From Clostridia bacterium (GTDB lineage Bacteria; Bacillota; Clostridia; UBA1381; UBA9506), in NCBI GenBank assembly GCA_017416855.1, contig JAFQAZ010000025.1, positions 62,001 through 126,000 on the forward strand: 64,000 nucleotides of DNA, written 5' to 3'. Under the pieces are notes generated by a model. That model saw only the letters and a program-made list of their open reading frames with translations. It was not told where the DNA came from and ran no database searches. A program made the translations under genes and the position numbers. Positions 30,324 through 48,446 of the stretch are shown piece by piece; within the stretch, counting starts at the first letter, position 1, and each line of letters begins with the position of its first letter.

Positions 30324-32798
30324 ATGCCAAAGTCACAATTTATGGATCCCGATGTGCTGAGAAAACCCGGGTTTATTGAATTTGAACCCATTCCGGTAAA
30401 CCAGTACAATAAAACAATTAAAGAGGAAAGCAAAAACTTTTCTAAGGATGATTTTCTGCGTATCTACCGCGATATGGCTATCATCCGCGAATTCGAGCAG
30501 ATGCTCTTAGACATCAAAACCAAGAGCGAATATCAGGGTATTGCTTACAACAACCCCGGTCCTGCTCACTTATCCTTAGGTCAGGAAGCTTCTGCAGTTG
30601 GTCAGGCTTACCTGCTGGATAAAAATGACTACATCTTCGGTTCTCACAGAAGCCACGGTGAAATCCTGGCTAAAGGTCTTTCCTGTATTCACAAGTTAGA
30701 CGACAAAGAACTGCTGGCTGATATGGAAGGCTTCTTTGACGGCCGTACATACAAAGTTGTAGAAGGTAAAGAAAAAGATAAGGGCAATGTGAAAGACCTG
30801 GCTATCGACTTCTTGCTCTACGGCGCACTGGCAGAAATCTTTGCTCGTGAAACCGGTTTCAATAAGGGCTTAGGCGGCTCCATGCACGCTTTCTTTACTC
30901 CCTTTGGTATTTACCCCAATAACGCTATCGTTGGTGGTAGTGCAACCATCGCTATGGGTGCTTCTATGTTCAAGAGAATCAATGGCAAGCCCGGCGTTGT
31001 TGTATCTAACGTTGGTGACGCTTCTATGGGTCGTGGCCCTGTTTGGGAAGCTCTGAACATGGGTGCTATGGACCAGATCACTCAGTTGTGGGAAGAAGGC
31101 TACAACAAGGGTCTGCCCATCATCTTCAACTTCTTCAATAACCTCTATGGTATGGGTGGTCAGACAATGGGTGAAACCATGGCTTACAACTTCCTGGCTC
31201 GCGTTGGTGCCGGTGTTAGCCCCACTCAGCTCCATGCTGAACGTGTTGACGGTTACAATCCGCTGGCAGTTATCGACGCGATGAGAAGAAAACTGGATAT
31301 CATCCATACTCAGGGTGGTCCTGTTCTGATGGATACTCTGACCTACAGAATGACCGGTCACTCTCCCTCTGATGCTTCTACCTACAGAACTAAGGAAGAG
31401 GTTGATAAGTGGGCTGAGCATGATGTTCTGGTTAACTACGAGAAGAAGCTGGTTGACGCTAAGGTTGCTAAGGCTGACGACTTTGCTGCTATGCGTGAAG
31501 ATATCAGAGAACGTATGAAGAAGATCGTTACACTGGCAATTGATGACAGCGTTTCTCCCAGAATGGATCTCGTAAAGAACCCCAATATCATTGCTGATTT
31601 GATGTTCTCCAACGAAAAAGTTGCTAAGATGGAAGACCGCACTCCCGACGTTTTAATTCCGAAGGAAGAAAACCCCAGAGTACAGAAGATTGCTAAGAAA
31701 GAACGTTTTGGCTTTGACAAGAACGGCAAACCCGTTTCCAAGAACAAGGTTTACCAGCTACGTGACGGTCTGTTCGAAGCTATTATCGATAAATTCTACG
31801 AAGATCCTACCTTAGTTGCTTACGGTGAAGATAACCGTGACTGGGGTGGCGCTTATGCTGTATATCAGGGTCTGACTGAATCTCTGCCTTACCACAGATT
31901 CTTTAACTCCCCGATTTCTGAGTCTGCTATCGCAGGTTCTGCCGTTGGTTACGCTATGAGCGGCGGTCGTGTTATCGCTGAAATCATGTACTGTGACTTC
32001 ATCGGTTGCTGCGGCGATGAAATCTTCAACCAGCTGGCTAAATGGCAGTCCATGAGTGCCGGCGTTCTGAAAATGCCGGTTATCATCCGTGTATCTGTTG
32101 GTTCTAAATATGGTGCACAGCACTCTCAGGACTGGTCCAGCATGTGTGCACACGTGCCCGGTCTGAAGGTTGTATTCCCTGTAACTCCTTACGATGCTAA
32201 GGGTATTATGAACTCCGCATTGAACGGTACTGACCCCGTTATCGTATTCGAGAGCCAGAGAATTTATGATGTGGGCGAACAGTTCCACGAAGGCGGCGTA
32301 CCCGAAGGCTACTATGAAGTAGAAATCGGCGAACCCGATATCAAGAAAGAAGGTAAGGATCTGACCATCCTGACCATTGGTGCTACTCTGTACCGTGCTT
32401 TGGATGCTGCTAAGGAACTGGAAGAAAAATATGGTATTTCCTGCGAAGTAATCGACGCAAGAACCATCGTTCCCTTCAATTATGAAAAGGTATTAGAGTC
32501 CGTTAAGAAGACTGGCAGAATCGTTCTGGCAAGTGATGCTTGCACCAGAGGTTCCGCTTTGAACACCATTGCTCAGAACATCACTGAAATGGCATTCGAT
32601 TATCTGGATGCTCCGCCGGTTGTTGTTGGTGCGCAGAACTGGATTACACCTTGCCACGAGTTGGAAACTGCATTCTTCCCGCAGAAGGATTGGATCATTG
32701 ATGCTATCCATGAAAAGATCCTGCCCCTGCCCGGCTATACTGCAACTCACAACTTCACTGAAACCGAACAGATCAGAACCAACAAAAAAGGTGTTTGA
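30324..32798 (+). CDS. Fused 2-oxoacid dehydrogenase E1 (alpha plus beta)
   Basis: An 824-residue single-chain thiamine-diphosphate enzyme joining the normally separate E1 alpha and beta subunits. Residues about 40-440 form the alpha half: [40 protein letters not shown], and the thiamine site beginning [20 protein letters not shown] and ending in FNFFNN. In most E1 the motif starts GDG; here it is GDA, with an insertion before the Asn. Residues about 475-824 form the beta half: [32 protein letters not shown], then [26 protein letters not shown]. The fused form and the neighbouring sugar-phosphate dehydrogenase suggest a substrate other than pyruvate, but this is unproven. Confidence 0.9.
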
Positions 32799-32887: not shown

Positions 32888-32904
32888 TATTTGAGGTGAT
32901 TTAC

Positions 32905-33821: not shown

Positions 33822-33866
33822 AAGAAGAAAGTTCAATAAAAAGGGCTTTCTTCTTTTCTTTTTTTA
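33822..33866 (+). terminator. Terminator after the AEC gene
   Basis: AAGAAGAAAG and CTTTCTTCTT form a 10-bp stem followed by TTCTTTTTTT. Confidence 0.72.
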
Positions 33867-34088: not shown

Positions 34089-34328
34089 ATGAAAGTAACA
34101 GTTTGTATTGGTAGTTCGTGTCATATCAAGGGTTCACGGCAGGTCGTTGAGCAATTGCAACAGCTTATCAATGAACGCAATCTTGGTGACAAAGTAGATC
34201 TTGGCGGTACCTTTTGTCTGGGTAAATGCCAACAGGGTGTTTGTGTAACTGTTGATGAAGTATTTCATTCTGTTACTCCGGAAAATGTTAATGAGTTTTT
34301 TGAAAACGAAATCGCTGCAAAGCTGTAA
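34089..34328 (+). CDS. Thioredoxin-like [2Fe-2S] ferredoxin
   Basis: A 79-residue protein of the NuoE/HymA-type thioredoxin-like 2Fe-2S fold. Four Cys ligands are present, in CIGSSC (Cys6, Cys11) and FCLGKC. It is first in the operon, 78 bases ahead of malate dehydrogenase. In NADH-dependent hydrogenases and complex I such a domain feeds electrons between a flavin subunit and other clusters. Here it probably acts as a small carrier or accessory subunit for the Hdr-Flx-Frd proteins encoded downstream; that is an inference. The ATG at 34089 was preferred because AAAGGATGG overlaps the earlier ATG at 34077. Confidence 0.85.
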   Translation: MKVTVCIGSSCHIKGSRQVVEQLQQLINERNLGDKVDLGGTFCLGKCQQGVCVTVDEVFHSVTPENVNEFFENEIAAKL

Positions 34329-34406
34329 GAACTTAGTCAATTACAAAAAAGGTTGAATCCAAACGATACATATCGTTAAACGAAAAATGAAAGGCGCGGA
34401 TCAGTT

Positions 34407-35348
34407 ATGAATAAAGTCACAGTTATCGGTTCCGGCAATGTAGGTGCCACAATAGCGTATACATTAACAGTTATGGGGCTTGCGTCTGAAATTGTTATGA
34501 TTGATGTTAATGAAGAGAAATCTCTCGGAGAGGCACTGGATATCAGACAGGGAATTCCTTTCTGTAATCCGGCAAATGTTTATGCAGGTACCTATGCCGA
34601 TGCAGAGAATTCTGACATTGTTGTTATTACATCAGGTATAGCAAGAAAGCCCGGTCAGTCAAGACTTGATCTGGCACAGACAAATGTTAATATTATTAAA
34701 AGTATAGCAGATAAAATTGTTCCGGTAGCACCGGAAGCTACTTACCTGATTGTAAGCAATCCGGTTGATATTTTAACATATGTATTTTTGAAGCATACGG
34801 GTCTTCCTCAGGAGCGTGTGGTTGGATCCGGAACTATTCTGGACACGGCAAGACTCCGTGCAAGAGTTGCTGAATATTACTCGGTGAATCAGAAAAATGT
34901 ACACGCCTATGTACTTGGCGAACACGGCGATAGTTCTTTTGTTCCCTGGTCTATTGCCAACATCTCCAATGTTCCCATTGAAGATTACGGAAATGCACTT
35001 CTTTCTAAAGGTGACTATCCTGAATTAAAGAGAGAAGAGGTTGAAAATTATGTCCGTAAATCAGGAGGCAGAGTCATCCAGCGTAAAGGGGCAACCTTTT
35101 ATGCGGTATCTGTATCGGTTTGTCATGTTATCAAATGCCTTTTAAGCGGCATTGATACAACTCTTACCGTATCAACAATGCTGAATGGGGAATATGGTAT
35201 TGATGATGTGTGCCTGAGCCTTCTGACAATTGTGGGCAATAAAGGCGCACACAACAAAATAATGCTTCCGCTTAATGACGTGGAAATTGCGGCGCTTCAT
35301 AACAGCGCGGCGGTGCTTAAGAATTTAATTAAAGATCTTGATATCTAA
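34407..35348 (+). CDS. mdh: Malate dehydrogenase (LDH-like fold, malate-type specificity residue)
   Basis: A 313-residue NAD-dependent 2-hydroxyacid dehydrogenase. The NAD motif is visible ([15 protein letters not shown]), as is the catalytic His in [13 protein letters not shown]. At first sight it is an L-lactate dehydrogenase. However, the substrate-specificity position, Gln in LDH, is Arg80 here (IARKPGQSR, with the second Arg at 86), the classic malate/oxaloacetate-type residue. Its neighbour is fumarase and PEP carboxykinase is at the end of the cluster, which fits a role reducing oxaloacetate to malate with NADH. It ends 19 bases before fumC. Confidence 0.84.
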
Positions 35349-35367
35349 ACAGAAAGGGATGCACGAA

Positions 35368-36744
35368 ATGGATTATCGTATTGAACATGATTCTATGGGC
35401 GAGGTCAAGGTGCCGGCAGATAAGCTTTGGGCGGCTCAGACACAAAGAAGCCACGAAAATTTTGAAATTGGTGTAGGGATTGAAACAATGCCTGCAGAAA
35501 TTATACATGCATTTGGTGTACTCAAAAAAGCGGCGGCCATCACAAATCATACTCTTCGCCCTGAAAAAATGACAGATAAAAAGCTTGAGGCCATTAAAAC
35601 GGCCTGTGACGAGATTATGGCAGGAAAGCTCAACGACAATTTTCCGCTTGTGGTGTGGCAGACAGGCTCAGGCACTCAGTCTAATATGAATGCCAATGAA
35701 GTGATTGCCAACAGAGGCAATCAGATTGCAGATGAAAAATTACTTCATCCCAATGATGATGTGAATATGAGTCAGTCTTCGAACGATACATTCCCCACGG
35801 CTATGCACATTGCAGCTGTGCTGACGCTGGAGAATAAATTGATTCCTGCTATTGAAGTACTGATTGATACGTTCAAGAGACTGGAAGCAGAAAATGAAGG
35901 CATTGTTAAAAGTGGCAGAACCCATTTGCAGGATGCTACGCCCATTACCTTCAGCCAGGAAATCAGTGGCTGGCGTTCAAGTCTTGAAAAGGATGTTGAA
36001 TTAATCCGCCGTTCTTTAGAGCCGCTTTACGAACTGGCTCTGGGCGGAACCGCTGTTGGAACCGGACTCAATGCGCCGGCGTCTTTTTCAGAGAAGGTGG
36101 CTGCAGAAGTTGCTGGCATTACCGGTAAACCTTTTGTAACTGCTGCAAATAAATTCCATGCCTTAACCTCTAAGGATGAATTGGTGTTTGCTCATGGTGC
36201 GATTAAGGCTCTTGCTTGTGATATGATGAAGATTGCTAACGATGTTCGTTGGCTTGCATCCGGCCCCAGAGACGGTCTCGGTGAAATTTTCATTCCTGAA
36301 AATGAACCTGGTTCTTCTATTATGCCGGGTAAAGTTAACCCCACACAATGTGAGGCTGTAACCATGGTTGCAGTTCAGGTTATGGGTAATGACGTTGCAG
36401 TCTCTATGGCAGCATCTCAGGGTAACTTTGAACTGAATGTGTTTATGCCTGTTTGTGCTTATAATTTCCTGCAGTCTGCAAGACTTTTGGCTGAGGCAAT
36501 TGTTTCCTTTAACAAAAACTGTGCTGTTGGTATTAAGGCTAATAAAGAAAAAATGCATCACAATCTGCATAATTCGTTAATGCTTGTGACAGCCCTGAAT
36601 CCTTATATTGGTTATGAAAATGCGGCAAAAACTGCTAAAAAAGCATTTAAAGATAATATTTCACTTAAGGAAGCTTGCGTTGAGCTTGGCTTTTTAACAG
36701 CTGAAAAGTTTGACGAAGTGTTCCATCCGGAAGAAATGGTTTAA
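35368..36744 (+). CDS. fumC: Class II fumarate hydratase
   Basis: Iron-free, oxygen-stable fumarase of 458 residues interconverting malate and fumarate. Typical motifs are present: [52 protein letters not shown], and the superfamily signature [15 protein letters not shown] with the mobile-loop Ser. The ATG at 35368 was chosen because AAAGGG is nine bases upstream; an ATG at 35359 directly abuts that site. Here it would dehydrate malate to fumarate, the electron acceptor of the fumarate reductase encoded in the same operon. Confidence 0.95.
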
Positions 36745-36759
36745 TCTGGAGGTATCAAA

Positions 36760-37551
36760 ATGAAGGTTAGTTATTTTCCGGGTTGTACCCTGAAAAATAA
36801 AGCGAAAGACCTTGATATGTATGCATATAAATCTGCAGAAGTGTTAGGGATTACGCTTGAAGAAATTGAAAACTGGCAATGCTGTGGTGGTGTGTTTACC
36901 ACGGCGAAAAACGAAATTGCGACAAAGCTTTCCTCTGTTCGCGCTTTGAAAGAAGCATATGCAAAGGAACAGTCTTTAGTTACGGTATGCTCAGCTTGCC
37001 ATAATGTTATTAAACAAACTAATTATGCCATGCAAAACGACAAGGACTTTTCTGACACCGTAAACCGTTATATGGCGGAAGATGGCGGATACTTTGGTGA
37101 GACTGAAGTGTATCACTATCTTGAAATGCTTCGTGATCTGGTTGGCTTTGATAAGCTGAAGGAAAAGGTTGTCAATCCCCTTGCAGGTAAGAAAATTGCG
37201 GCCTATTACGGATGTCTCTTGTTAAGACCCAGCGGTGTTATGAAAATGGATGATCCTGAAAATCCGACCATTATGGAGAACTTCATTAAAGCGTTGGGTG
37301 CAGAGCCGGTTATCTATGCGCAGCGCAATGAGTGCTGTGGAGGATATGTCAGCGTAGAAAGCCCTGAACTTGCTAAAAAGAACAGCAATGCCGTTGTACG
37401 GAACGCGAAGGCGCAGGGTGCTGAAATGATTATCACAGCTTGCCCGCTTTGTAAATATAATCTGGTGAAAAATGGTGCCGATATTCCGGTAGTTTATTTT
37501 ACGGAGCTGTTAGCAGAGGCTCTTGGCGTAAAGGAGGATACAAATGAATAA
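36760..37551 (+). CDS. hdrB: Heterodisulfide reductase-type subunit B
   Basis: A 263-residue protein with the two CCG domains of HdrB. Motif 1 is CTLKNKAKDL followed by NWQCCGGVF; motif 2 is ACYGCLL-like (AAYYGCLLLRP) followed by QRNECCGGYVS, then ACPLCKYNL. In methanogens these Cys motifs hold two non-cubane [4Fe-4S] clusters that reduce a disulfide. Here no coenzyme M/B chemistry is expected; the subunit probably passes electrons to a partner such as the fumarate reductase (inference). The 3' end overlaps hdrC by 8 bases. Confidence 0.92.
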   Translation: MKVSYFPGCTLKNKAKDLDMYAYKSAEVLGITLEEIENWQCCGGVFTTAKNEIATKLSSVRALKEAYAKEQSLVTVCSACHNVIKQTNYAMQNDKDFSDTVNRYMAEDGGYFGETEVYHYLEMLRDLVGFDKLKEKVVNPLAGKKIAAYYGCLLLRPSGVMKMDDPENPTIMENFIKALGAEPVIYAQRNECCGGYVSVESPELAKKNSNAVVRNAKAQGAEMIITACPLCKYNLVKNGADIPVVYFTELLAEALGVKEDTNE

Positions 37552-37930
37552 TCAGTATCTTCGTGAGGAATTAATCCGTCAAAGCGGCGTGAATCCTAAA
37601 AAATGTATGAAATGCGGAAAATGTTCTGCAACTTGCCCTGCTTATGATGAGATGGAATACCATCCTCATCAGTTTGTCAGCATGGTTGAAAGTGGCGATA
37701 TAGAGCCGCTTTTACAGTCAGAATCATTATATAAATGTTTATCTTGTTTCGCCTGCATCGAAAGATGCCCCAGAGGCGTGGAGCCTGCTAAATTGGTGGA
37801 GGCAGTCCGCCTTTCTGCTATCAGAAAACAAGGTGAAAACAGAATGACAGCCAATGATGTTCCGGCTCTTTTAGATGAAGATACACCGCAACAGCTTTTG
37901 GTCAGCGCATTCAGAAAATATAGTAAGTAA
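37544..37930 (+). CDS. hdrC: Heterodisulfide reductase-type subunit C
   Basis: A 128-residue ferredoxin-like subunit with two [4Fe-4S] motifs: CMKCGKCSATCPAY (about 21-34) and CLSCFACIERCPRGVEP (about 65-81). HdrC relays electrons from HdrA to HdrB in characterised complexes. The start overlaps the hdrB end, implying coupled translation and stoichiometric synthesis. HdrA follows 14 bases later. Confidence 0.92.
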   Translation: MNNQYLREELIRQSGVNPKKCMKCGKCSATCPAYDEMEYHPHQFVSMVESGDIEPLLQSESLYKCLSCFACIERCPRGVEPAKLVEAVRLSAIRKQGENRMTANDVPALLDEDTPQQLLVSAFRKYSK

Positions 37931-37944
37931 GGAGGAAAAGACGA

Positions 37945-39939
37945 ATGCAAAGAGTTGGTGTTTTTGTATGTTGGTGCGGTAGTAATATTGCAGGTACAGT
38001 AGATGTGCAAGCAGTATCAGAAGCCCTGAAAAGCGAACCGGGCGTTGTCTTTTCCGCCAACTATCAATATATGTGTTCTCAGGCAGGACAGGATATGATT
38101 AAGGAAGCGGTTAAAGAGCATAATCTTACCGGTATTGTGGTTTGCTCCTGTTCACCGCGTATGCATGAGGCAACCTTCAGAAAAACGGCGGCTGCCGCAG
38201 GCATTAATCCGTATATGGTTGAAATTGCCAACATTAGAGAACAGTGTTCCTGGGTTCATAAGGATATTGCTACAGGAACAGAAAAAGCTATCATTCTCGG
38301 TAAAGCGGCTATTGCTAAAGTTAATCTTAACACACCGCTTACACCTGGAGAATCACCGGTAACTAAGAGAGCGCTGGTGATCGGCGGCGGTATTGCCGGT
38401 ATTCAGACAGCTCTTGATATTGCAGATGCCGGTTTTCCGGTTGATATTGTTGAAACAAAGCCTACCATCGGTGGTAAAATGGCACAGCTTGATAAAACGT
38501 TCCCCACTCTTGACTGTGCGGCTTGTATTTTAACACCTAAAATGGTGGATGTTGCTCAAAACGAAAAGATCCGTATTTTCTCATATAGTGAGGTATCTGA
38601 AATAAAGGGTTTTGTGGGTAATTTTGATGTAACCATCAAGAAAAATGCCCGTTATGTAAAAGAAGATATCTGCACAGGCTGCGGTGCCTGCGTAGAAAAG
38701 TGCCCTATGAAGAAAGTTCCGAACGAGTTTAATCTCGGTATGGATAATCGTAGTGCCATTTACATTCCCTTTGCACAGGCAGTTCCCAAGGTGGCTACCA
38801 TTGATCCCAATGCCTGCAATATGCTTAAAAACGGAAAGTGCGGTCTTTGTGCAAGGGTTTGTACGGCAGGAGCCATTGATTATACACAAAAAGATGAATA
38901 TATCAACGAAAAATACGGTGCAATTGTTGTTGCCACCGGCTTTAATCCCATTAGTATGGATAAATTCGATGAGTTTGCCTACAATCAGTCCAAGGATGTT
39001 ATCACATCTTTGGAATTTGAGCGTCTGACCAATGCGGCAGGTCCTACAGCCGGCCATCTTGAAAGACCGTCTGACGGTAAATCACCGAAAACCATCGTAT
39101 TTGTTCAGTGTGTTGGTTCAAGATGTGATGCTTGCGCAGAAAAGGGTAAAGAGTATTGCTCAAAAATCTGTTGTATGTACACAGCGAAGCATGCTATGCT
39201 GACAAGAGACAAATACCCTGATACAGAGGTATATGTATTCTATATTGATGTGAGAACCCCCGGTAAAAACTTTGACGAATTTTATCGCCGTGCCGTTGAG
39301 GAATACGGTGTGAAATATGTTAAAGGTATGGTGGGTAAGGTTACACCTGAGGGTGATAAACTGAAGGTTCAGGCCTCTGACCTGATTGCCAATAAACAGC
39401 TTCACATTGATGCAGATCTGGTTGTTTTGGCAGCGGCTATTGAGCCGGATAAGTCGGCTCGTCCTTTAGCGACTATGCTGACGGCCAGCATGGATACAAA
39501 TGACTTCTTTACAGAGGCTCATCCAAAGCTTCGTCCGGTGGAAAGCCCCACGGCCGGTGTGTTCCTTTCCGGTGCCTGCCAGGGTCCGAAGGATATTCCT
39601 GAAACCGTTTCTCAGGCAGGCGCGGCCGCATCAAAGGTTATCGGACTGTTAGCCAAGGATAAATTAACAGGCAATCCCTGTGTGGCTCATTCAAATGAGC
39701 TGATGTGTAACGGTTGTTCTTCCTGTGAAAAAGTTTGCGCTTATGGTGCTATCACTTATGAAAATAAAGAATTCCGTATGCCTGACAGAACAACAAAAAT
39801 CAGAAGAGTTGCTGTTGTGAATCCTGCGGTTTGTCAGGGTTGCGGTGCATGTACGGTTGCTTGTCCGTCAGGCGCTATGGATTTGAACGGATTTGCAAGT
39901 AATCAGATTATGGCGGAGGTGGATGCAATATGCAAGTAA
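37945..39939 (+). CDS. hdrA: Heterodisulfide reductase-type subunit A (flavin bifurcation subunit)
   Basis: A 664-residue iron-sulfur flavoprotein, the flavin-based bifurcation centre in HdrABC complexes. Order of elements: an N-terminal cluster-binding domain (GVFVCWCGSNI; MCSQAG; VCSCSPRMHE), the FAD motif VIGGGIAGIQTALDIADAG (about 149-167), and ferredoxin motif CTGCGACVEKCP. Next come CGLCARVC, a Cys-rich insert (CVGSRCDACAEKGKEYCSKICC), and C-terminal ferredoxin motifs CNGCSSCEKVC and CQGCGACTVACP. The end overlaps the next gene by 10 bases. The C-terminal ferredoxin domain is where reduced ferredoxin is made in characterised members. Confidence 0.93.
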   Translation: MQRVGVFVCWCGSNIAGTVDVQAVSEALKSEPGVVFSANYQYMCSQAGQDMIKEAVKEHNLTGIVVCSCSPRMHEATFRKTAAAAGINPYMVEIANIREQCSWVHKDIATGTEKAIILGKAAIAKVNLNTPLTPGESPVTKRALVIGGGIAGIQTALDIADAGFPVDIVETKPTIGGKMAQLDKTFPTLDCAACILTPKMVDVAQNEKIRIFSYSEVSEIKGFVGNFDVTIKKNARYVKEDICTGCGACVEKCPMKKVPNEFNLGMDNRSAIYIPFAQAVPKVATIDPNACNMLKNGKCGLCARVCTAGAIDYTQKDEYINEKYGAIVVATGFNPISMDKFDEFAYNQSKDVITSLEFERLTNAAGPTAGHLERPSDGKSPKTIVFVQCVGSRCDACAEKGKEYCSKICCMYTAKHAMLTRDKYPDTEVYVFYIDVRTPGKNFDEFYRRAVEEYGVKYVKGMVGKVTPEGDKLKVQASDLIANKQLHIDADLVVLAAAIEPDKSARPLATMLTASMDTNDFFTEAHPKLRPVESPTAGVFLSGACQGPKDIPETVSQAGAAASKVIGLLAKDKLTGNPCVAHSNELMCNGCSSCEKVCAYGAITYENKEFRMPDRTTKIRRVAVVNPAVCQGCGACTVACPSGAMDLNGFASNQIMAEVDAICK

Positions 39940-40364
39940 ACGAACACAAACCTTTAATCGTAGCATTTTGCTGTAACTGGTGTTCTTATGCCGGTGCAGA
40001 TCTTGCAGGCAATAACCGCCTTAATTATCCCGCTGATGTCAAGATTATCAGAGTGCCTTGCTCTTGCCGTGTGAATCCTATGTTTATTCTTCGCGCCTTT
40101 CAGAGAGGGGCAGACGGAGTTATCATCTGCGGCTGCCATCCCGGTGACTGTCATTATACATCGGGTAACTATTATACACGTCGTAGAATGGCAGCACTCT
40201 TTTCTATGCTTGATTTTCTGGGCATTGAAAAAGAGCGTACCCGTGTGGAATGGGTTTCTGCTGCAGAAGGTGCAAAATTTGCGGCCACAATGAATGATTT
40301 TGTGGAACAGGTAACAGCTCTTGGTGAGAATAAAAGATTGGAGGATCTGCGATGCAAACGATAA
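39930..40364 (+). CDS. flxD: MvhD/FlxD-type [2Fe-2S] electron-transfer subunit
   Basis: A 144-residue protein of the MvhD family. Conserved Cys are in AFCCNWCSYAGADLAG (about 11-26), VPCSCRVNP and CGCHPGDCHY. In methanogens MvhD links hydrogenase to HdrA; in FlxABCD-HdrABC clusters of sulfate reducers, FlxD links the NADH-oxidising Flx proteins to HdrA. Overlaps with hdrA upstream and with the next gene downstream (13 bases) show tight coupling. Confidence 0.88.
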   Translation: MQVNEHKPLIVAFCCNWCSYAGADLAGNNRLNYPADVKIIRVPCSCRVNPMFILRAFQRGADGVIICGCHPGDCHYTSGNYYTRRRMAALFSMLDFLGIEKERTRVEWVSAAEGAKFAATMNDFVEQVTALGENKRLEDLRCKR

Positions 40365-41350
40365 CAAAACAACAGTTACTGGATAAAGCAGATTCTTTAC
40401 TTGCAAACGGTACTGTTACGGCAGTTTTAGGATGGAGCAAGGGTGAATTTGGTTACGATGTAACTCCCAAAATGTTTACAACCAAAGAAGATCTGGAACA
40501 GAATTTTGTCTGGAATGATTTTTGCGGCGTTAATTTTTCAAAATACCTTGTTTCCAAAACAGATAGATTTGAAGGTAAAATCCTTGTGTTTTTAAAACCC
40601 TGTGATACCTATAGCTTCAATCAGCTTTTAACGGAGCATCGTTTTGACCGCGAAAAGGTTTATGCTGTGGGCATTCCTTGCGAGGGTATGGTTGATGTTT
40701 CAAAGCTGAAAGCAGCAACAGGGGATGGAATCAGCGAAATAAAAGAAGATGGCGACAATCTTCTGGTTACAACCATTTATGAAGATGAGCCTGCTACGGT
40801 TCCTTGCAGGGATGTTTTGCTGGAACGCTGCATCAATTGCAAGAGCAAAAAGCACGTTGCTTATGACGAGCTTTTGGGCGATGAAGGCGAAATCATTGAT
40901 TCAGCCAGATTTGATGAGGTTGCCCAAATTGAGGCCATGACGCCTGATGAAAGATTTGCTTTCTGGCAGAACGAGCTTTCCCGTTGCATTCGTTGTAATG
41001 CTTGCCGTGATGCTTGCCCTGCCTGCACCTGCGAAAAGTGTGTATTTGATAACCCCAATTCCGGTGTTGAAAATAAAGCACCTGCCAATAGCTTTGAAGA
41101 AAAGATGTTCCACATCATCAGAGCTTATCATGTGGCAGGCAGATGTACTGACTGTGGCGAATGCTCAAGAGTTTGTCCACAGAATATTCCCCTTCATCTT
41201 CTGAACCGTAAGTTCATAAAGGATATTAATGAGTTTTACGGCGAATATCAGGCGGGGGCAGAGGTTGGTTCACGAGCTCCCCTTGTGGATTATACCACCG
41301 ATGATTTAGAGCCGGGTGAAGTGTTTGACAGGAGGGATATGGATGCGTAA
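40352..41350 (+). CDS. flxC: FlxC/FlxB-like ferredoxin subunit (first of two)
   Basis: A 332-residue cytosolic iron-sulfur protein. The N-terminal half has the fold seen in sulfhydrogenase beta subunits and related proteins (ILVFLKPCDTYSFNQLL; CINCKSKK). The C-terminal half has two [4Fe-4S] motifs, CIRCNACRDACPACTCEKC (about 212-230) and CTDCGECSRVCPQNIPLHLL. It has the same architecture as the next gene product, so the pair look like ancient duplicates. Which corresponds to Desulfovibrio FlxB or FlxC is uncertain. It probably carries electrons between FlxA and FlxD/HdrA. Confidence 0.75.
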   Translation: MQTITKQQLLDKADSLLANGTVTAVLGWSKGEFGYDVTPKMFTTKEDLEQNFVWNDFCGVNFSKYLVSKTDRFEGKILVFLKPCDTYSFNQLLTEHRFDREKVYAVGIPCEGMVDVSKLKAATGDGISEIKEDGDNLLVTTIYEDEPATVPCRDVLLERCINCKSKKHVAYDELLGDEGEIIDSARFDEVAQIEAMTPDERFAFWQNELSRCIRCNACRDACPACTCEKCVFDNPNSGVENKAPANSFEEKMFHIIRAYHVAGRCTDCGECSRVCPQNIPLHLLNRKFIKDINEFYGEYQAGAEVGSRAPLVDYTTDDLEPGEVFDRRDMDA

Positions 41351-42371
41351 ATGTTCTCTTGATACAATCAATGCTATTTTTGAAGCTATTGCAAAAACGG
41401 CTAAGCTTTATATTCCTGCTGATGATAAAGACGGTAGTGCTGTGTATAAACAGTGGGAAGAGGGCGTTCTTTGGAGCAATGCTTTAAATACCGTAAGAAG
41501 CCCCAAAGATTTCTTTTTCCCGCAAATGGAAACCCTGATGGAATTTAAAACAGAGGGTAAAAACATTGAAGTGATTGATACAAGAAGTGAAACAGAAGAT
41601 TTTGTTATCTTTGGCGTTCGTGCTTGTGATGTCAAAAGCTTTGAAGTGTTAGACAGAGTATTTTTAACAGAACCCGTTGACAGCTATTATGCGGCAAGAC
41701 GCGAAAAAGGAGTTATTGTGTCAACAGCCTGTGCAAAACCGGCAGAAACCTGCTTCTGCAAAACCTTTGGTATTTCTCCTGAGGAGCCTGCAGGTGACAT
41801 TTCCACCTGGAAGACAGAGAATGAAATCTTTTTTAAAGCCAACACCCCCAAAGGGGAGGCTCTTTTAGAAAAAATTGCTGGCCTCACAGAAGAGTGCGAT
41901 GAAACAGCAGTTGACAGTCAAAAAGAAAAGATTGCAAAGGTAATGGATAAACTTCCGCTGAAAGATCTTACGACAGATGGCTTTGGCGGTGGAAAAACAG
42001 ACGAGTTTTTCAATCATCCTGCCTGGGATGAACTGTCCGGCAGCTGCCTTGGCTGTGGAACCTGTACCTTTGTGTGCCCCACCTGTCAGTGCTATGACAT
42101 TAAGGATTTTAACACAGGCAACGGCGTCATCAGATTCAGATGCTGGGATTCCTGTATGTATTCAGAGTTTACCAAAATGGCTCACGGAAATAACCGATTG
42201 ACGCAGAAAGAGCGCTTCCGTCAGAGATTTATGCATAAGTTAGTGTACTATCCTGAAAACAACGAAGGTCTTTTTAGTTGTGTAGGTTGCGGCAGATGCC
42301 TTTCTAAATGTCCTATTTCTATGAACATTGTGAAAGTTATGAAAAAGATTGGAGGGAAGATGAGTGAGTAA
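41343..42371 (+). CDS. flxB: FlxB/FlxC-like ferredoxin subunit (second of two)
   Basis: A 342-residue protein resembling the beta subunit of sulfhydrogenase and anaerobic sulfite reductase subunit A. The N-terminal half includes FVIFGVRACDVKSFEVLD, equivalent to the CDTYSF segment of the preceding protein. The C-terminal half has CLGCGTCTFVCPTCQCYDI (about 231-249), DSCMYSEFTKMAHGN, and CVGCGRCLSKCPISMNIV. Such subunits pair with an FAD/NAD(P)H subunit, which here is the next gene. The ATG at 41343 lies behind AGGAGGG and overlaps the previous stop region by 8 bases. Confidence 0.78.
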   Translation: MRKCSLDTINAIFEAIAKTAKLYIPADDKDGSAVYKQWEEGVLWSNALNTVRSPKDFFFPQMETLMEFKTEGKNIEVIDTRSETEDFVIFGVRACDVKSFEVLDRVFLTEPVDSYYAARREKGVIVSTACAKPAETCFCKTFGISPEEPAGDISTWKTENEIFFKANTPKGEALLEKIAGLTEECDETAVDSQKEKIAKVMDKLPLKDLTTDGFGGGKTDEFFNHPAWDELSGSCLGCGTCTFVCPTCQCYDIKDFNTGNGVIRFRCWDSCMYSEFTKMAHGNNRLTQKERFRQRFMHKLVYYPENNEGLFSCVGCGRCLSKCPISMNIVKVMKKIGGKMSE

Positions 42372-43197
42372 CAGAGAAGAAACTTTAATTCCCAAAATCG
42401 GCGTTATCACAGATGTCCGCATTGATACCCCGGACATTAAAACCTTCAGGGTTGTAACGCCTGACGGCAAAAAAGCATTCGACCACCGTCCGGGACAATG
42501 TGCAATGCTTTCCGTTCCCGGGGTTGGCGAAGCCATGTTTTCTATTACATCTTCACCCACCAATGAAGATTATATGGAATTCTCCATTAAAAAGTGCGGA
42601 TGTGTAACAGAATGGCTCCACCAGGCAGAGGTTGGACAGCAGATCACTATCAGAGGACCTTATGGTAAGCCGTTCCCTGTTGATGATGTGTTTGCCGGTA
42701 AAAACCTTTTGTTTATTGCCGGTGGTGTTGGCCTGGCACCCCTTCGCTCAGTAATCAATTATTGCAGGCATTATCGTGACCGCTACGGCGAAATTGATAT
42801 TGTTTACGGCTCAAGAAGTAAAGATGATTTACTTGATTATAAGGAAATTATTGATGAATGGTCACAGGATGCCGGTGTTAAGGTGCATCTTACCATTGAT
42901 AATCCTCAGGAGGGCTGGGACGGCCATGTAGGCTTTGTTCCCAACTATGTAAAGGAGCTTGGCTTTGATACCAATAAAACGGCTGTTCTTTGCGGACCTC
43001 CGATTATGATTAAGTTTACATTAGATGGTCTTTGCAGCCTTGGATTTGACAAAACTCAGATTTACACAACCCTTGAACTCAGAATGAAATGTGGCGTTGG
43101 TAAATGCGGAAGATGTAATGTTGGCTCTAAGTATGTATGCAAAGATGGCCCGGTGTTCAGATGCGATGAGCTGGATGAACTTCCGGATGAGTATTAA
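42364..43197 (+). CDS. flxA: FlxA-like NAD(P)H-oxidising flavoprotein with a [2Fe-2S] cluster
   Basis: A 277-residue ferredoxin-NADP reductase-family protein. FAD-binding is suggested by RPGQCAMLSVPGVGEAMFSITSSP, and NAD(P)-binding by FIAGGVGLAPLRSVI (about 119-133) and VLCGPPIMI. The C-terminal Cys set CGVGKCGRCNVGSKYVC is the [2Fe-2S] site also seen in PyrK and sulfhydrogenase gamma. It would accept hydride from NADH and feed electrons into the FlxB/C and FlxD-HdrA subunits. The start is GTG at 42364, overlapping the preceding gene by 8 bases. Confidence 0.88.
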   Translation: MSNREETLIPKIGVITDVRIDTPDIKTFRVVTPDGKKAFDHRPGQCAMLSVPGVGEAMFSITSSPTNEDYMEFSIKKCGCVTEWLHQAEVGQQITIRGPYGKPFPVDDVFAGKNLLFIAGGVGLAPLRSVINYCRHYRDRYGEIDIVYGSRSKDDLLDYKEIIDEWSQDAGVKVHLTIDNPQEGWDGHVGFVPNYVKELGFDTNKTAVLCGPPIMIKFTLDGLCSLGFDKTQIYTTLELRMKCGVGKCGRCNVGSKYVCKDGPVFRCDELDELPDEY

Positions 43198-43209
43198 AGG
43201 AGAGGTAAC

Positions 43210-43884
43210 ATGGAAAAGATGGTAAATATTTTTCTGTTTGGTAAAAAATATGAAGTTCCTGCTAATTTAACCATTATGACAGCAATGGAATATGCCGGCT
43301 ATCAGTTGGTTCGCGGTTGCGGTTGCCGTAATGGCTTTTGCGGCGCCTGTGCAACGGTTTATCGCATTAAGGGCGACAAAGAATTAAAAGCTTGTCTTGC
43401 TTGCCAGACGCAGGTGGAAGACAATATGTACATTGCAACTCTGCCGTTCTTCCCTTTGGTTAAAGAGGTGTATGACATGGAGAAAATTACGCCTTCAGAA
43501 GCCGTTATGATGCAGCTTTATCCTGAAATTTATGCTTGTGTCGGCTGTAATGCCTGCACAAAGAGCTGCACCCAGGAGCTGAATGTTATGCAGTATATCG
43601 CCTATGCTCAGCGCGGTGATTTTGAAAAGTGTGCTGAGGAGTCATTTGACTGTGTAATGTGCGGTGTTTGTTCTTCAAGATGTCCTGCGGGGATTTCACA
43701 TCCTCAGGTTGCTATGCTGGCAAGAAGAATTAACGGTAAGTATCTGGCACCCGGTTGTGAACATCTTGATGCACGTGTGAAAGAGATTAAAGACGGTACC
43801 TTTAATGAACTGATTGAAGCCCTGATGCAAAAGCCTGTTGAAGAACTGAAAGAGCTTTATAACACACGTGAAATCGAGAAGTAA
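43210..43884 (+). CDS. frdB: Fumarate reductase/succinate dehydrogenase-type iron-sulfur subunit
   Basis: A 224-residue iron-sulfur protein. The N-terminal plant-ferredoxin-like part binds a [2Fe-2S] cluster (GCGCRNGFCGAC, then CLAC). The C-terminal helical part has two ferredoxin motifs, CVGCNACTKSCTQELNVMQ and CVMCGVCSSRCPAGISHPQ. Ordinary FrdB has one [4Fe-4S] and one [3Fe-4S] motif and docks to a membrane anchor; no anchor gene exists here. The layout is closer to soluble thiol:fumarate reductase TfrB of methanogens, but without its CCG domain, which here is supplied separately as HdrB. A GAGGTAAC site precedes the ATG. Confidence 0.82.
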   Translation: MEKMVNIFLFGKKYEVPANLTIMTAMEYAGYQLVRGCGCRNGFCGACATVYRIKGDKELKACLACQTQVEDNMYIATLPFFPLVKEVYDMEKITPSEAVMMQLYPEIYACVGCNACTKSCTQELNVMQYIAYAQRGDFEKCAEESFDCVMCGVCSSRCPAGISHPQVAMLARRINGKYLAPGCEHLDARVKEIKDGTFNELIEALMQKPVEELKELYNTREIEK

Positions 43885-43897
43885 GGAGGAGATCGGA

Positions 43898-45505
43898 ATG
43901 TATTCTGAGCAATTTCAAAAATCCATTAAAGCGGTTGAAGCAGCCAGAGAAGCGAATATTGCATTAGAGCCCGACCGCATGACGGCAAAGCAGAAGGAAG
44001 ATTTGCTGGCAGCATATCATCCTGACTATAAAAAAGATGAATTTGAAACTCTTAAATTTGGCCCTAACAAGGGTCAGGAGGTGCCTCGCGAGCTGTGTGA
44101 GCTGCTTCAGGCTAAAAGCCGCATTAAGGCTGATGACATTGATTTGAACGATGTTACCTATGATGTGGATGTTCTGGTTATCGGCGGCGGCGGTGCCGGC
44201 ACTTCAGCTGCTATTGAAGCCCACGAAGCAGGTGCAAAGGTTATGATTGCAACCAAGCTTCGCATGGGTGATGCCAACACAATGATGGCAGAAGGCGGTA
44301 TTCAGGCGGCTGATAAGCCTAACGATTCCCCGGCGATTCACTTTGTGGATGCTTTTGGTGGTGGTCACTTTGCTGCAAAGCGTGAACTGCTTTCCAAGCT
44401 GGTTTGTGATGCTCCGGAGGCAATTCAATGGCTTTCCAATTTGGGTGTTGAATTTGATAAAGAGGCTGACGGCACAATGGTTACAACCCATGGTGGTGGT
44501 ACATCCCGTAAGCGTATGCACGCGGCAAAGGACTATTCCGGCGCAGAAATCATGCGTACCCTGCGTGATGAGGTGTTAAACCGTCAGATTCCTGTTGTTG
44601 ATTTTACCGCAGCTATTGAACTGATTTTAGATGAAAAGGGCAATGCAGCAGGTGCGGTGCTTATGAATATGGAAACCAATGAACTGATGGTTGCCAAGGC
44701 GAAAACCGTTATCATTGCAACCGGAGGTGCAGGCAGAATGCACTATCAGGGTTTCCCCACATCCAACCATTATGGTGCAACGGCCGATGGTCTGGTGCTT
44801 GGCTATCGTGCAGGCGCTAAACTGCTTTATGCCGAAACATTGCAGTATCATCCTACAGGCGTTGCATATCCTGAACAGATTTTTGGTGCTTTGGTAACGG
44901 AAAAAGTGCGTTCGTTGGGCGCAAAGCTTGTTAATGTGAATGGTGATGTGTTTATGCATCCGCTGGAAACCCGTGATGTTTCTGCGGCTTCTATCATCCG
45001 CGAATGCACAGACCGTGGTAATGGTGTGGACACAGGTAGCGGCCTGGGTGTATGGCTGGATACGCCGATGATTGAAAAAATCGGTGGAGAAGGCACCATT
45101 GAAAAGAGAATTCCGGCGATGATGCGTATGTTCGGCCAGTATGGCATCGACATCCGCAAGGAGCCCATTCTGGTGTTCCCCACATTGCATTATCAGAACG
45201 GCGGTTTGGATATCAATGTTGACGGTTCAACTACCAATGTCGAAAATCTGTATGTTGCCGGTGAGGCTGTTGGCGGCATTCACGGTAAGAACAGACTGAT
45301 GGGCAACTCCCTTTTAGATATTATTGTATTTGGTAGAAATGCTGGTCAGAATGCGGCGGCAAAAGCGAAAAATGTGACCGTTGGTAAGCTTTCTTTAGAT
45401 CATATTGCAGCGTTTGATAAGGAACGTGCAGCAGCAGGTGTTGAAACGGATGCTGTTTCTCCTAAACTGTTGCCAGATTATACTAATCGTAAAAACAGAG
45501 CATAA
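43898..45505 (+). CDS. frdA: Soluble fumarate reductase flavoprotein subunit
   Basis: A 535-residue flavoprotein of the succinate dehydrogenase/fumarate reductase family. After a roughly 90-residue helical N-terminal extension comes the FAD motif VLVIGGGGAGTSAAIEAHEAG. Catalytic elements are LQYHPTG, the Arg in ETRDVSAASIIREC, LHYQNGGLDIN (substrate His), and FAD-binding ENLYVAGEAVGGIHGKNRLMGNSLLDIIVFG. The His that carries covalent FAD in membrane Sdh/Frd (S-H-T) is Asn127 here (DANTMMAEGG), so FAD should be non-covalent, as in soluble enzymes. The ATG at 43898 follows AAGGAGGAG, 13 bases after frdB. Confidence 0.86.
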   Translation: MYSEQFQKSIKAVEAAREANIALEPDRMTAKQKEDLLAAYHPDYKKDEFETLKFGPNKGQEVPRELCELLQAKSRIKADDIDLNDVTYDVDVLVIGGGGAGTSAAIEAHEAGAKVMIATKLRMGDANTMMAEGGIQAADKPNDSPAIHFVDAFGGGHFAAKRELLSKLVCDAPEAIQWLSNLGVEFDKEADGTMVTTHGGGTSRKRMHAAKDYSGAEIMRTLRDEVLNRQIPVVDFTAAIELILDEKGNAAGAVLMNMETNELMVAKAKTVIIATGGAGRMHYQGFPTSNHYGATADGLVLGYRAGAKLLYAETLQYHPTGVAYPEQIFGALVTEKVRSLGAKLVNVNGDVFMHPLETRDVSAASIIRECTDRGNGVDTGSGLGVWLDTPMIEKIGGEGTIEKRIPAMMRMFGQYGIDIRKEPILVFPTLHYQNGGLDINVDGSTTNVENLYVAGEAVGGIHGKNRLMGNSLLDIIVFGRNAGQNAAAKAKNVTVGKLSLDHIAAFDKERAAAGVETDAVSPKLLPDYTNRKNRA

Positions 45506-45532
45506 GTAATTAAGAAAAGAGGTCTTTTAGTT

Positions 45533-46795
45533 ATGACATTATTTGGTGGTGTTATTCCCGTAACGGGCATTACATTTTTGATGGTTTGCCTGTTTGCAAT
45601 TCTTTTTTGCGGTTACGCATTGGGAAGAATAACAATCAAAGGTGTGTCGCTGGGAGATGCAGGTGTGTTTATCGTTGCTCTTTTATTTGGTGCATTTTTC
45701 TTTGCACCCCTTGATAAACAGCTTGTTATCAAAGGTGCTGTTGAGGTAGGGTTTACTGACAAAGCACTTTCCATTATTGAAACACTTGGTCTTATTCTTT
45801 TTGTTACATCTGTCGGATTTATTGCAGGTCCTAAGTTCTTTGCCAATATGAAGAAGAACTTCAAATCTTATGTATTGATTGGTCTTGTGATTATCCTGTT
45901 CGGTGGCCTTTCGGCTGTTGGTTGTATCTACCTTGGTGAAGTGTTAGGCTACGGCGCATCGATAGAGACGCAGGATGGATTTGTTGCCATGATTGTAGGA
46001 CTTTTATCTGGCTCTCTAACATCAACGCCCGCATTTTCTGCGGCAAAAGCAACAGTTGCTCCTGAGTACACAAGCCTTGTTTCAGTTGGTCACGGCATCG
46101 CCTACATTTTCGGTGTTATCGGTGTTGTGCTGTTTGTGCAGATTATTCCCAAGCTGACAAAGGCTAATATGGAAGAAGAACGCGCAAAAATTGCCATTCA
46201 GGTTGATGAAACAGATAAAAAGGCTTGCACAGGTAAGCTTTTGAGCCTTGATGGTCACGGCTTCGCAGCATTTTCGTTGGCAGCAGTGCTTGGCGCCCTT
46301 GTTGGAAAAATTATGATTCCTTTATCATCGGCAGGTCTTTCGGGCACATGCTTTTCGCTGACAACAACCGGCGGTTGCTTACTGGTTTCCCTACTGATTG
46401 GTCACTTTGGCAGAATCGGCAAATTAAACCTTATGCCCGATACTACAACACTCAAGCTTTTCAGAGAACTGGGTCTTGTATTATTCCTGGTTGGTGCAGG
46501 CATTCCCGGTGGTGCAGACTTTGTGGCAAACTTTGACTCTATGTACTTTGTATACGGTATCATTATGACCGTTATCCCTATGATTGTAGGTTATCTGTTT
46601 GCTAAATATGTGCTGAAATTAAGCCTTTTAAACAACTTGGGTTCCATCACAGGCGGTATGACAAGTACACCGGCCTTGGGCACTCTGATTGGAACAGCAG
46701 GCACAGAAGATGTAGCGGCAGCTTATGCTTCTACATATCCTATAGCGCTCATTGCGGTGGTATTGGTATCACAATTTTTAGTTATATTATTTTGA
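45533..46795 (+). CDS. AspT/YidE-family membrane exchanger (candidate succinate exporter)
   Basis: An integral membrane protein of 420 residues with about ten hydrophobic helices. It shows the internal duplication of the aspartate:alanine exchanger family: the signature SGSLTSTPAFSAAK (about 166-179) recurs as TGGMTSTPALGTL near 378-390. Family members exchange aspartate/alanine, and the Corynebacterium member SucE1 exports succinate. Its place directly after the fumarate reductase genes suggests C4-dicarboxylate exchange or succinate export. It has no large cytoplasmic TrkA-C domain, so it is a short form. The ribosome site is AAAAGAGG. Confidence 0.85.
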   Translation: MTLFGGVIPVTGITFLMVCLFAILFCGYALGRITIKGVSLGDAGVFIVALLFGAFFFAPLDKQLVIKGAVEVGFTDKALSIIETLGLILFVTSVGFIAGPKFFANMKKNFKSYVLIGLVIILFGGLSAVGCIYLGEVLGYGASIETQDGFVAMIVGLLSGSLTSTPAFSAAKATVAPEYTSLVSVGHGIAYIFGVIGVVLFVQIIPKLTKANMEEERAKIAIQVDETDKKACTGKLLSLDGHGFAAFSLAAVLGALVGKIMIPLSSAGLSGTCFSLTTTGGCLLVSLLIGHFGRIGKLNLMPDTTTLKLFRELGLVLFLVGAGIPGGADFVANFDSMYFVYGIIMTVIPMIVGYLFAKYVLKLSLLNNLGSITGGMTSTPALGTLIGTAGTEDVAAAYASTYPIALIAVVLVSQFLVILF

Positions 46796-46841
46796 TTTTT
46801 TTTAAAAATAAAAATAAATTAAAAAAGGAAAGAGGTTAAAC

Positions 46842-48446
46842 ATGAAAAACATCGATTTAAGCAAGTATGGTATTACAGGTGTGAAGGAAATCATCCATAA
46901 TCCTTCATACGAAGAGCTGTTTGCTGCAGAAACCGATCCTTCTTTAGAAGGCTTCGAAAAAGGTCAGGAAACTGAACTGGGTGCAGTAAACGTAATGACC
47001 GGCATTTATACCGGCCGTTCTCCCAAAGATAAATTTATTGTTATGGATGAAAATTCAAAAGACACCGTTTGGTGGACTTCTGATGAATTCAAAAACGACA
47101 ACCACCCCTGCAGCGAAGAAACCTGGGCTGAATTAAAGAAACTGGCTATCGCACAGCTTTCTGATAAGAAACTCTACGTAGTAGACGTTTTCTGCGGTGC
47201 TAACGAAGACTCCAGAATGTCCATCAGATTCATTATGGAAGTTGCTTGGCAGGCTCACTTTGTAAAGAATATGTTCATCAACCCCACAGCTGAAGAATTA
47301 GAAAACTTCGAGCCTGACTTTGTTTGCTACAATGCCTCCAAAGCAAAGGTTGAAAACTACAAAGAATTAGGTCTTAATTCTGAAACAGCTGCAGTATTCA
47401 ACATCACTTCCCGTGAGCAGGTTATCTTAAACACCTGGTACGGCGGTGAAATGAAAAAGGGTATGTTCTCTATGATGAACTACTACCTGCCCTTAAACGG
47501 TATGGCTTCTATGCACTGTTCTGCAAACACTGATATGAACGGTGAAAATACTGCATTATTCTTCGGTCTTTCCGGTACCGGTAAAACAACTCTGTCAACC
47601 GATCCTAAGCGTCTGTTGATTGGTGACGACGAACACGGCTGGGATGACAAGGGTGTATTCAACTTTGAAGGCGGTTGCTATGCCAAGGTTATCAATCTGG
47701 ATAAAGATTCCGAGCCAGACATCTACAATGCGATCCGTCGTAACGCTCTCTTAGAAAACGTTACTGTAGATGCAAACGGCGTTTGTGATTTCAATGACGG
47801 TTCTGTTACTGAAAATACCCGTGTATCTTACCCCATTGATCACATTGAAAAGATTGTACGTCCCGTATCTGCTGCTCCGGATGCTAAGAACGTAATCTTC
47901 CTTTCTGCTGATGCTTTTGGCGTACTGCCTCCGGTTTCTATTTTAACTCCTGAACAGGCTCAGTACTACTTCCTGTCTGGTTTTACTTCAAAGCTGGCAG
48001 GTACTGAACGTGGTATCACAGAACCTACACCGACCTTCTCTGCATGCTTCGGTCAGGCTTTCTTAGAGCTGCATCCGACCAAATATGCTGAAGAGCTGGT
48101 TAAGAAGATGGAAAAGAGCGGTGCTAAGGCATACCTCGTAAACACCGGTTGGAATGGTACCGGCAAACGTATCTCCATTAAAGATACCCGTGGTATCATC
48201 GATGCTATCTTAGATGGCTCCATCTTAAAGGCTGAAACTAAAGAAATTCCTTACTTCAATTTTGCAGTTCCTACCGCACTGCCCGGCGTTGATTCCGGCA
48301 TTTTAGATCCCCGTGACACCTACGGTGATGCAGCTGAGTGGGATGCAAAGGCAAAAGACCTTGCTTCTCGTTTTGTTAAAAACTTCGAGAAATACACCGG
48401 CAACGATGCAGGTAAAGCATTGGTTAGTGCTGGCCCCAGCTTATAA
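46842..48446 (+). CDS. pckA: Phosphoenolpyruvate carboxykinase (ATP)
   Basis: A 534-residue ATP-type enzyme interconverting oxaloacetate plus ATP with PEP, CO2 and ADP. Motifs visible are [26 protein letters not shown], the kinase P-loop [11 protein letters not shown] (about 241-251), [23 protein letters not shown] with the metal-binding Asp, and RVSYPIDHI. In succinate-forming anaerobes it works towards oxaloacetate, conserving an ATP. That fits its position 46 bases after the succinate operon and may mean it is cotranscribed. A strong terminator follows. Confidence 0.96.

Follow-up and report, generated by a model that had tools for sequence, protein, structure and literature searches.

An arginine at position 102 of the LDH-fold enzymes, the position held by Gln102 in lactate dehydrogenases (LDHs), pairs with the second carboxylate of oxaloacetate. 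In mutational work this arginine was described as strongly favouring dicarboxylates (PMC3268733, PMC9486893). One clostridial example is Ccel_0137 from C. cellulolyticum, an LDH-like enzyme with Arg81 that is encoded beside malic enzyme; it was reported as the main malate dehydrogenase (MDH) of this species, and the mutant retains 28% of the MDH activity (PMC3268733). The authors of that report cite Gln102Arg, and the two C. cellulolyticum enzymes were judged to overlap in substrate. A mixed LDH/MDH signature is also described for the intermediate MalDH group (Brochier-Armanet and Madern 2021, as cited in PMC9486893). According to PMC9486893, the LDH-like residue Thr246 disfavours oxaloacetate; within the intermediate group some T246 enzymes take both substrates, and the wild-type R102/T246 MalDH of A. 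fulgidus is described as not using pyruvate.

The succinate operon described for P. thermosuccinogenes (Pseudoclostridium) comprises fumarase, Flx-Hdr, fumarate reductase and a putative transporter, and the coupling of fumarate reduction to ferredoxin reduction by Flx-Hdr/fumarate reductase was proposed there as an assumption (PMC7282089). A literature search of titles and abstract openings revealed no report of an LDH-type MDH within a Flx-Hdr-fumarate reductase operon. The locus analysed here lies in a 64,000-nucleotide stretch from a Clostridia bacterium (the window), and its downstream gene set matches by name the one described for P. thermosuccinogenes; whereas no MDH is listed in that description, the window has a putative LDH-type MDH as the first gene and a PEP carboxykinase (PEPCK) as the last. 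There is precedent for each component. The novelty lies in a distinct clade with the signature Q68/R102/S199/T246/V250 and in its linkage to the fumarate reductase operon.

The LDH-fold enzyme and its signature residues

The ORF at 34407-35348 (+ strand) encodes a putative LDH-family malate dehydrogenase of 313 aa with the Pfam domains Ldh_1_N and Ldh_1_C. Its substrate-specificity loop (34641-34667, + strand), located by sequence and by alignment to PDB LDHs, reads A79-R80-K81-P82-G83-Q84-S85-R86-L87, and Arg80 (codon AGA, 34644-34646) is the equivalent of position 102. The best PDB matches of the protein are chains named L-lactate dehydrogenase; among these solved enzymes, Arg80 is aligned with Gln in 4m1q (AAQKPGETR) and 2zqy (APQKPGETR), and with Arg in 1y6j (ANRKPGETR). 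The preliminary description had placed an arginine at the substrate-discriminating Gln of the LDHs. This was borne out by the PDB alignment and by the close relatives, since Arg was found at position 102 in all 80 best matches. These relatives, at 57-87% identity and chiefly from MAGs of gut Clostridia, were the best 80 from one scan of named genomes, for which the peptide patterns excluded the loop.

A class-wide sample of 148 genomes yielded 88 full-length LDH-family ORFs, which were taken from 89 matches of at least 275 bits outside the window's genome; two of them were below the model cut-off, the split match in G031 was omitted, and fragments and weaker LDH-family matches fell outside the sample. 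Position 102 was Q in 53, R in 32 and another residue in 3 of these ORFs. The Arg enzymes comprised 18 from the window's own clade, 12 from the clade of the 1y6j type and two others, and the 18 were all the same-clade enzymes in the sample (18/18 with Arg). Arg at position 102 is a lineage trait, beyond chance. Together with the 80 close relatives, these gave 98 window-type rows with 94 distinct sequences, as four of the 18 class rows repeat close relatives. The partial ORF L132 was excluded. The window-type counts also leave out a second LDH-family ORF in L073 (L073:2682-3638), which lies 5' of the Arg enzyme and whose product has Pro at position 102.

The catalytic set is intact (R86, D146, R149 and H173, equivalent to R109, D168, R171 and H195), and these residues are invariant in the 98 window-type rows. 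The NAD-selecting acid Asp33 is present as Asp in 96 of these rows and as Glu in the other 2. The signature positions 68/102/199/246/250, in the numbering of PMC9486893, were mapped via the GEHGD, GAT and D-x-x-H/Q-G motifs. The signature of the window clade is Q/R/S/T/V, in which Q68, R102 and T246 are present in 98/98 rows; position 199 is S in 82, A in 15 and G in 1, and position 250 is V in 85 and I in 13. In the window's enzyme, Gln48 and Ser177 occupy positions 68 and 199. The LDHs have mostly H/Q/E/T/I-V, the 1y6j type H/R/Q/T/I, and MalDH type 3 E-Q/R/M/A/P.

The enzyme shares with the canonical L-lactate dehydrogenases the T246 residue, the GEHGDS motif and a family-model score above cut-off; however, it differs from them at Gln102 (Arg in the enzyme), His68 (Gln) and Glu199 (Ser). 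Arg102 is common to MalDH type 3, and Gln68 to 8 of the 17 type-3 rows; whereas M199, A246 and P250 are absent from the enzyme. The clostridial LDH-like MDHs of the type of Ccel_0137 and C. thermocellum Cthe_0345 are similar in being LDH-type sequences with Arg102. However, that type has the 1y6j-type residues given above and adjoins malic enzyme, whereas the window's enzyme lies in a succinate operon of a genome in which malic enzyme was not found. Compared by description, the solved R102/T246 members of the intermediate MalDH group have H68 and P250, whereas the window clade has Q68 and V/I250. Judged by this distinct signature, the enzyme belongs neither to the canonical LDHs nor to MalDH type 3, and it is also distinct from the Ccel_0137 type.

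The family models disagree on this protein. The NCBIfam equivalog for L-lactate dehydrogenase (TIGR01771) was passed with 334.1 bits (cut-off 303.55) and the broader MDH subfamily model PRK06223 narrowly so (286.3 against 283); whereas the MDH equivalog of MalDH type 3 (TIGR01763) was failed by 125 bits (227 against 351.85). As the L-LDH equivalog is passed and the MDH equivalog is not, annotation would mislabel the enzyme as a lactate dehydrogenase, as the preliminary description had anticipated; all 18 same-clade loci of the class-wide sample also score above the TIGR01771 cut-off. The label of PDB 1y6j might be a similar case. Malic enzyme adjoins both of the 1y6j-type loci that were checked (L193 and L197), and the L197 protein is 91% identical to 1y6j. 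Because of the Arg at position 102 and this identity to a protein whose gene adjoins that of malic enzyme, 1y6j, named L-lactate dehydrogenase, is probably a malate dehydrogenase of the LDH-like type.

The gene run and its conservation

FumC, HdrABC, FlxABCD and FrdAB are found in one run downstream of the enzyme within the window. The class II fumarase FumC (35368-36744; TIGR00979, 721 bits, cut-off 664.75) follows the dehydrogenase after a gap of 19 bases. Next are the HdrB-like (36760-37551; best family TIGR03288) and HdrC-like (37544-37930; best family TIGR03290) subunits, both under the cut-offs of these families, and an HdrA-like flavoprotein (37945-39939; HdrA2, 774 bits, under the cut-off of 1100) as the candidate bifurcating subunit. 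The Flx part consists of an FlpD/MvhD-like subunit (FlxD, 39930-40364; PF02662, 188 bits), a 4Fe-4S protein named FlxC from its position (40352-41350; Fer4_8/Fer4_9), a sulfhydrogenase beta/AsrA-like 4Fe-4S protein (FlxB, 41343-42371; Fer4_22, with ShyB/HydB/AsrA below cut-offs), and an FAD/NAD-binding subunit (FlxA, 42364-43197; PF00175, PF10418 and PF00970) that is the likely NADH entry point. These are followed by an FrdB-like subunit with 2Fe-2S and 4Fe-4S domains (43210-43884; Fer2_4 and Fer4_9, no NCBIfam match at 1e-20) and an FrdA/TfrA-like fumarate reductase flavoprotein (43898-45505; PF00890, 229 bits; TfrA, 339 bits, cut-off 718). The Hdr and Frd names rest on homology, as the best NCBIfam models all score below cut-off. 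The run from 36760 to 45505 (HdrABC-FlxDCBA-FrdBA) is a candidate NADH-dependent, ferredoxin-coupled soluble fumarate reductase.

The last two genes encode an AspT/YidE-type permease (45533-46795; PF06826, 182 bits), which is a candidate dicarboxylate exporter by predicted substrate, and an ATP-type PEPCK (46842-48446; TIGR00224, 815 bits, cut-off 590.05) that would supply oxaloacetate. All genes from a small ferredoxin gene upstream of the dehydrogenase through PEPCK are on the + strand, with intergenic gaps of -13 to 75 bases, and we infer that the run 34407-48446 is a single transcript. The FrdA-like protein has about 90 residues ahead of its FAD domain (in the ORF translated from 43868, FAD_binding_2 begins at residue 101), which are perhaps a docking segment; the FrdA matches in the class (n=22) align from query residue 1-11 onward.

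The small upstream gene (34089-34331, + strand; PF01257, 36 bits) encodes a thioredoxin-like [2Fe-2S] ferredoxin and ends 75 bases 5' of the dehydrogenase. It is possible that this is the first gene of the transcript, as a part that is not firm. As a conserved partner it was rejected, with a match in just 17 of 100 loci and frequently kilobases away. Further upstream, an AEC permease gene at 32896 is followed by a terminator-like hairpin (33822-33855), a feature from scans of weak power (21 hairpins and 40 promoter-like sites were found, where 15.6 and 31.1 would be expected). The 80 close loci gave no AEC permease match; a match of 25% was seen at the Gln locus L199. The permease was excluded from the operon because the hairpin follows the gene and none of the 80 close loci has a match. 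An Rfam scan of the window gave no match at gathering score. The region also encodes an 824-aa protein (30324-32798) that is an E1-alpha/E1-beta fusion of the pyruvate/acetoin dehydrogenase type of complex; its neighbours are an E2-like gene (27560) and one resembling dihydrolipoamide dehydrogenase (28930), both named from sequence only.

The linkage is widespread among the close relatives. FumC and/or HdrB were found within 4 kb downstream in 67 of the 80 close loci. Four of the 13 others have less than 1.5 kb of contig left; for the remaining nine, FrdA is present elsewhere in each genome (71-85% identity), as one match in eight genomes (two with one stop codon in the aligned stretch) and as two pieces in one, and it is adjoined by FrdB and FlxA in all nine. 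The order Hdr-Flx-FrdB-FrdA was the same in 12/12 loci, namely the window and 11 relatives that were followed for 13-16 kb; FumC is present in 8 of the 12, including the window. In the class sample, FumC and/or Hdr genes adjoin all 18 window-type loci, whereas within flanks of up to 5 kb they adjoin 0/23 Gln loci, 0/14 other Arg loci and 0/3 other loci. No FumC or Hdr neighbours were found at the 30 top Gln loci within about 1.5 kb of flank. One exception to a clean contrast is L115, a MalDH type 3 locus near which a 33% HdrC-like match occurs. At L046:3484-5942, an Arg enzyme is encoded directly after citrate synthase, another oxaloacetate enzyme. Three loci from Spirochaete MAGs (L041, L042 and L043) have the Arg enzyme and then FumC-HdrBCA in the same order, which suggests horizontal transfer unless the MAG bins are mixed.

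Co-occurrence with FrdA was also evident across the 148 genomes, in which FrdA was searched for with the window's FrdA as query (E 1e-100 or better). FrdA was found in 22 genomes and the full-length window-type enzyme in 19, the window's own genome included; 18 genomes have both, one the enzyme only, four FrdA only, and 125 neither (Fisher p 2e-18, with kinship ignored). The genomes with both belong to 13 family codes. The enzyme-only genome (G032) is 62% complete and has FumC adjacent to the enzyme. Among the FrdA-only genomes, G071 encodes a window-type enzyme as a fragment at a contig end. The other three show no window-type enzyme: G061 encodes a 1y6j-type enzyme with Arg, and the single LDH-model match in each of G030 and G110 has Gln.

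Phylogeny and the origin of Arg102

Two trees were reconstructed: a quick tree of 147 rows, which included 27 of the 80 close relatives and omitted L135 and L139 as repeats of L089 and L104, and a careful tree of 85 rows chosen by hand. In the quick tree, the window clade (46 tips, support 100) stood beside the LDHs, whose uniting node had a support of 5; in the careful tree it fell inside the LDHs with weak support (62/14). The window and 1y6j clades were separate in both free trees. None of four arrangements held for testing was rejected, namely a joint window and 1y6j clade (p-AU 0.60, log-likelihood 6.2 above the free tree), the window clade outside the LDHs (p-AU 0.715, log-likelihood 13.5 above), the 1y6j clade outside the LDHs (p 0.682), and all Arg rows on one side (p 0.564). 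All four held trees score above the free tree, and thus the free search was not optimal. The column of position 102 needs at least 3 changes on the free tree.

The preliminary description had called for placement in an LDH/MDH phylogeny and had regarded the arginine as a change from Gln. The placement gave the enzyme a clade of its own; however, the word change goes further than the trees, since the free trees disagree and the held tests reject nothing. No direction is claimed, whether Arg replaced Gln or the lineage never had Gln. One tentative scenario, with the odds leaning against it, is that a clade of gut Clostridia (and some Spirochaetes) reverted from LDH to MDH via Q68, R102, S199 and V250, with T246 kept, and was fixed at the start of an electron-bifurcating fumarate reductase operon, which would then encode both NADH-consuming steps of succinate fermentation. 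If true, this would be the reverse of the MDH-to-LDH transitions that are counted in PMC9486893.

Function of the enzyme and alternative readings

With the malate-selecting Arg and the position at the start of a succinate gene cluster, the enzyme is very probably the cell's malate dehydrogenase, in a bacterium that probably dwells in the gut. The best explanation of 34407-35348 is an L-malate dehydrogenase of the LDH branch that depends on NADH and serves succinate formation; the genomic context supports this reading well, with a probability of about 0.87. Arg80 would engage the second carboxylate of oxaloacetate, so that oxaloacetate would be reduced and not pyruvate. In the predicted direction of flux, PEPCK would form oxaloacetate from PEP and CO2, the enzyme would reduce it to malate as step two of the succinate branch, FumC would convert malate to fumarate, and FrdAB would reduce fumarate to succinate. 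The electrons for the last step would probably come from NADH via FlxABCD-HdrABC, where ferredoxin might also be reduced by flavin-based bifurcation. On this reading the enzyme would be an NADH-dependent MDH that feeds a possibly bifurcating fumarate reductase.

The genome searches are consistent with this function. In the window's genome, which is 96.9% complete (about 3% missing), the enzyme is the only Ldh_1 match, and neither an Ldh_2-type MDH nor malic enzyme (Malic_M) was found; the searches covered these three families. With the enzyme acting solely as a lactate dehydrogenase, none of the routes searched would supply FumC with malate from oxaloacetate. The malate-type function claimed in the preliminary description is thus favoured by the neighbouring genes, by the lack of another MDH in these searches, and by the co-occurrence with FrdA.

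An L-lactate dehydrogenase that tolerates Arg80 is a very unlikely alternative, in which the malate for FumC would be imported by the AEC permease at 32896 or fumarate would come from aspartate. It agrees with the L-LDH equivalog score and with the upstream permease gene; whereas the arginine is invariant in the clade (98/98 rows), the enzyme co-occurs with FrdA, and the permease is set apart by the hairpin and matched in none of the 80 close loci. The case of 1y6j, with Arg here, an LDH name in the PDB and 91% identity to the L197 protein, whose gene neighbours malic enzyme, also argues against it. An oxidative direction, in which imported malate would be dismutated, one part oxidised by the enzyme and another converted to succinate, concerns another flux through the same enzyme. 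The reaction is reversible and would call for no other genes, and the AEC permease is nearby; however, this direction is unlikely, as the ATP-type PEPCK at the end of the run fits sugar fermentation to succinate, and malic enzyme, the usual route from malate to pyruvate, was not found in the genome.

Dual specificity is rather unlikely as well, though less so than either of these, and it is compatible with MDH function. An enzyme with Arg102 and Thr246 would reduce both oxaloacetate and pyruvate, and form succinate or lactate by need. Thr246 is kept in 98/98 window-type rows, the enzyme is the only Ldh_1 match in its genome, and some T246 enzymes of the intermediate group are reported to take both substrates (PMC9486893). 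Against this stand the linkage and co-occurrence with the fumarate reductase genes, the strong preference for dicarboxylates ascribed to Arg102 in the mutational work, and the A. fulgidus R102/T246 enzyme, for which no pyruvate use is described (PMC9486893). Within the preferred reading of the enzyme as a malate dehydrogenase, the retained Thr246 may still allow some pyruvate activity.

Genomes of this kind would be annotated with a lactate dehydrogenase and without a malate dehydrogenase, although they are probably succinate makers, and metabolic models resting on the LDH label would lose the oxaloacetate-to-malate step. The clade also provides a natural experiment for identifying the residues that, besides position 102, determine malate specificity in an LDH scaffold.
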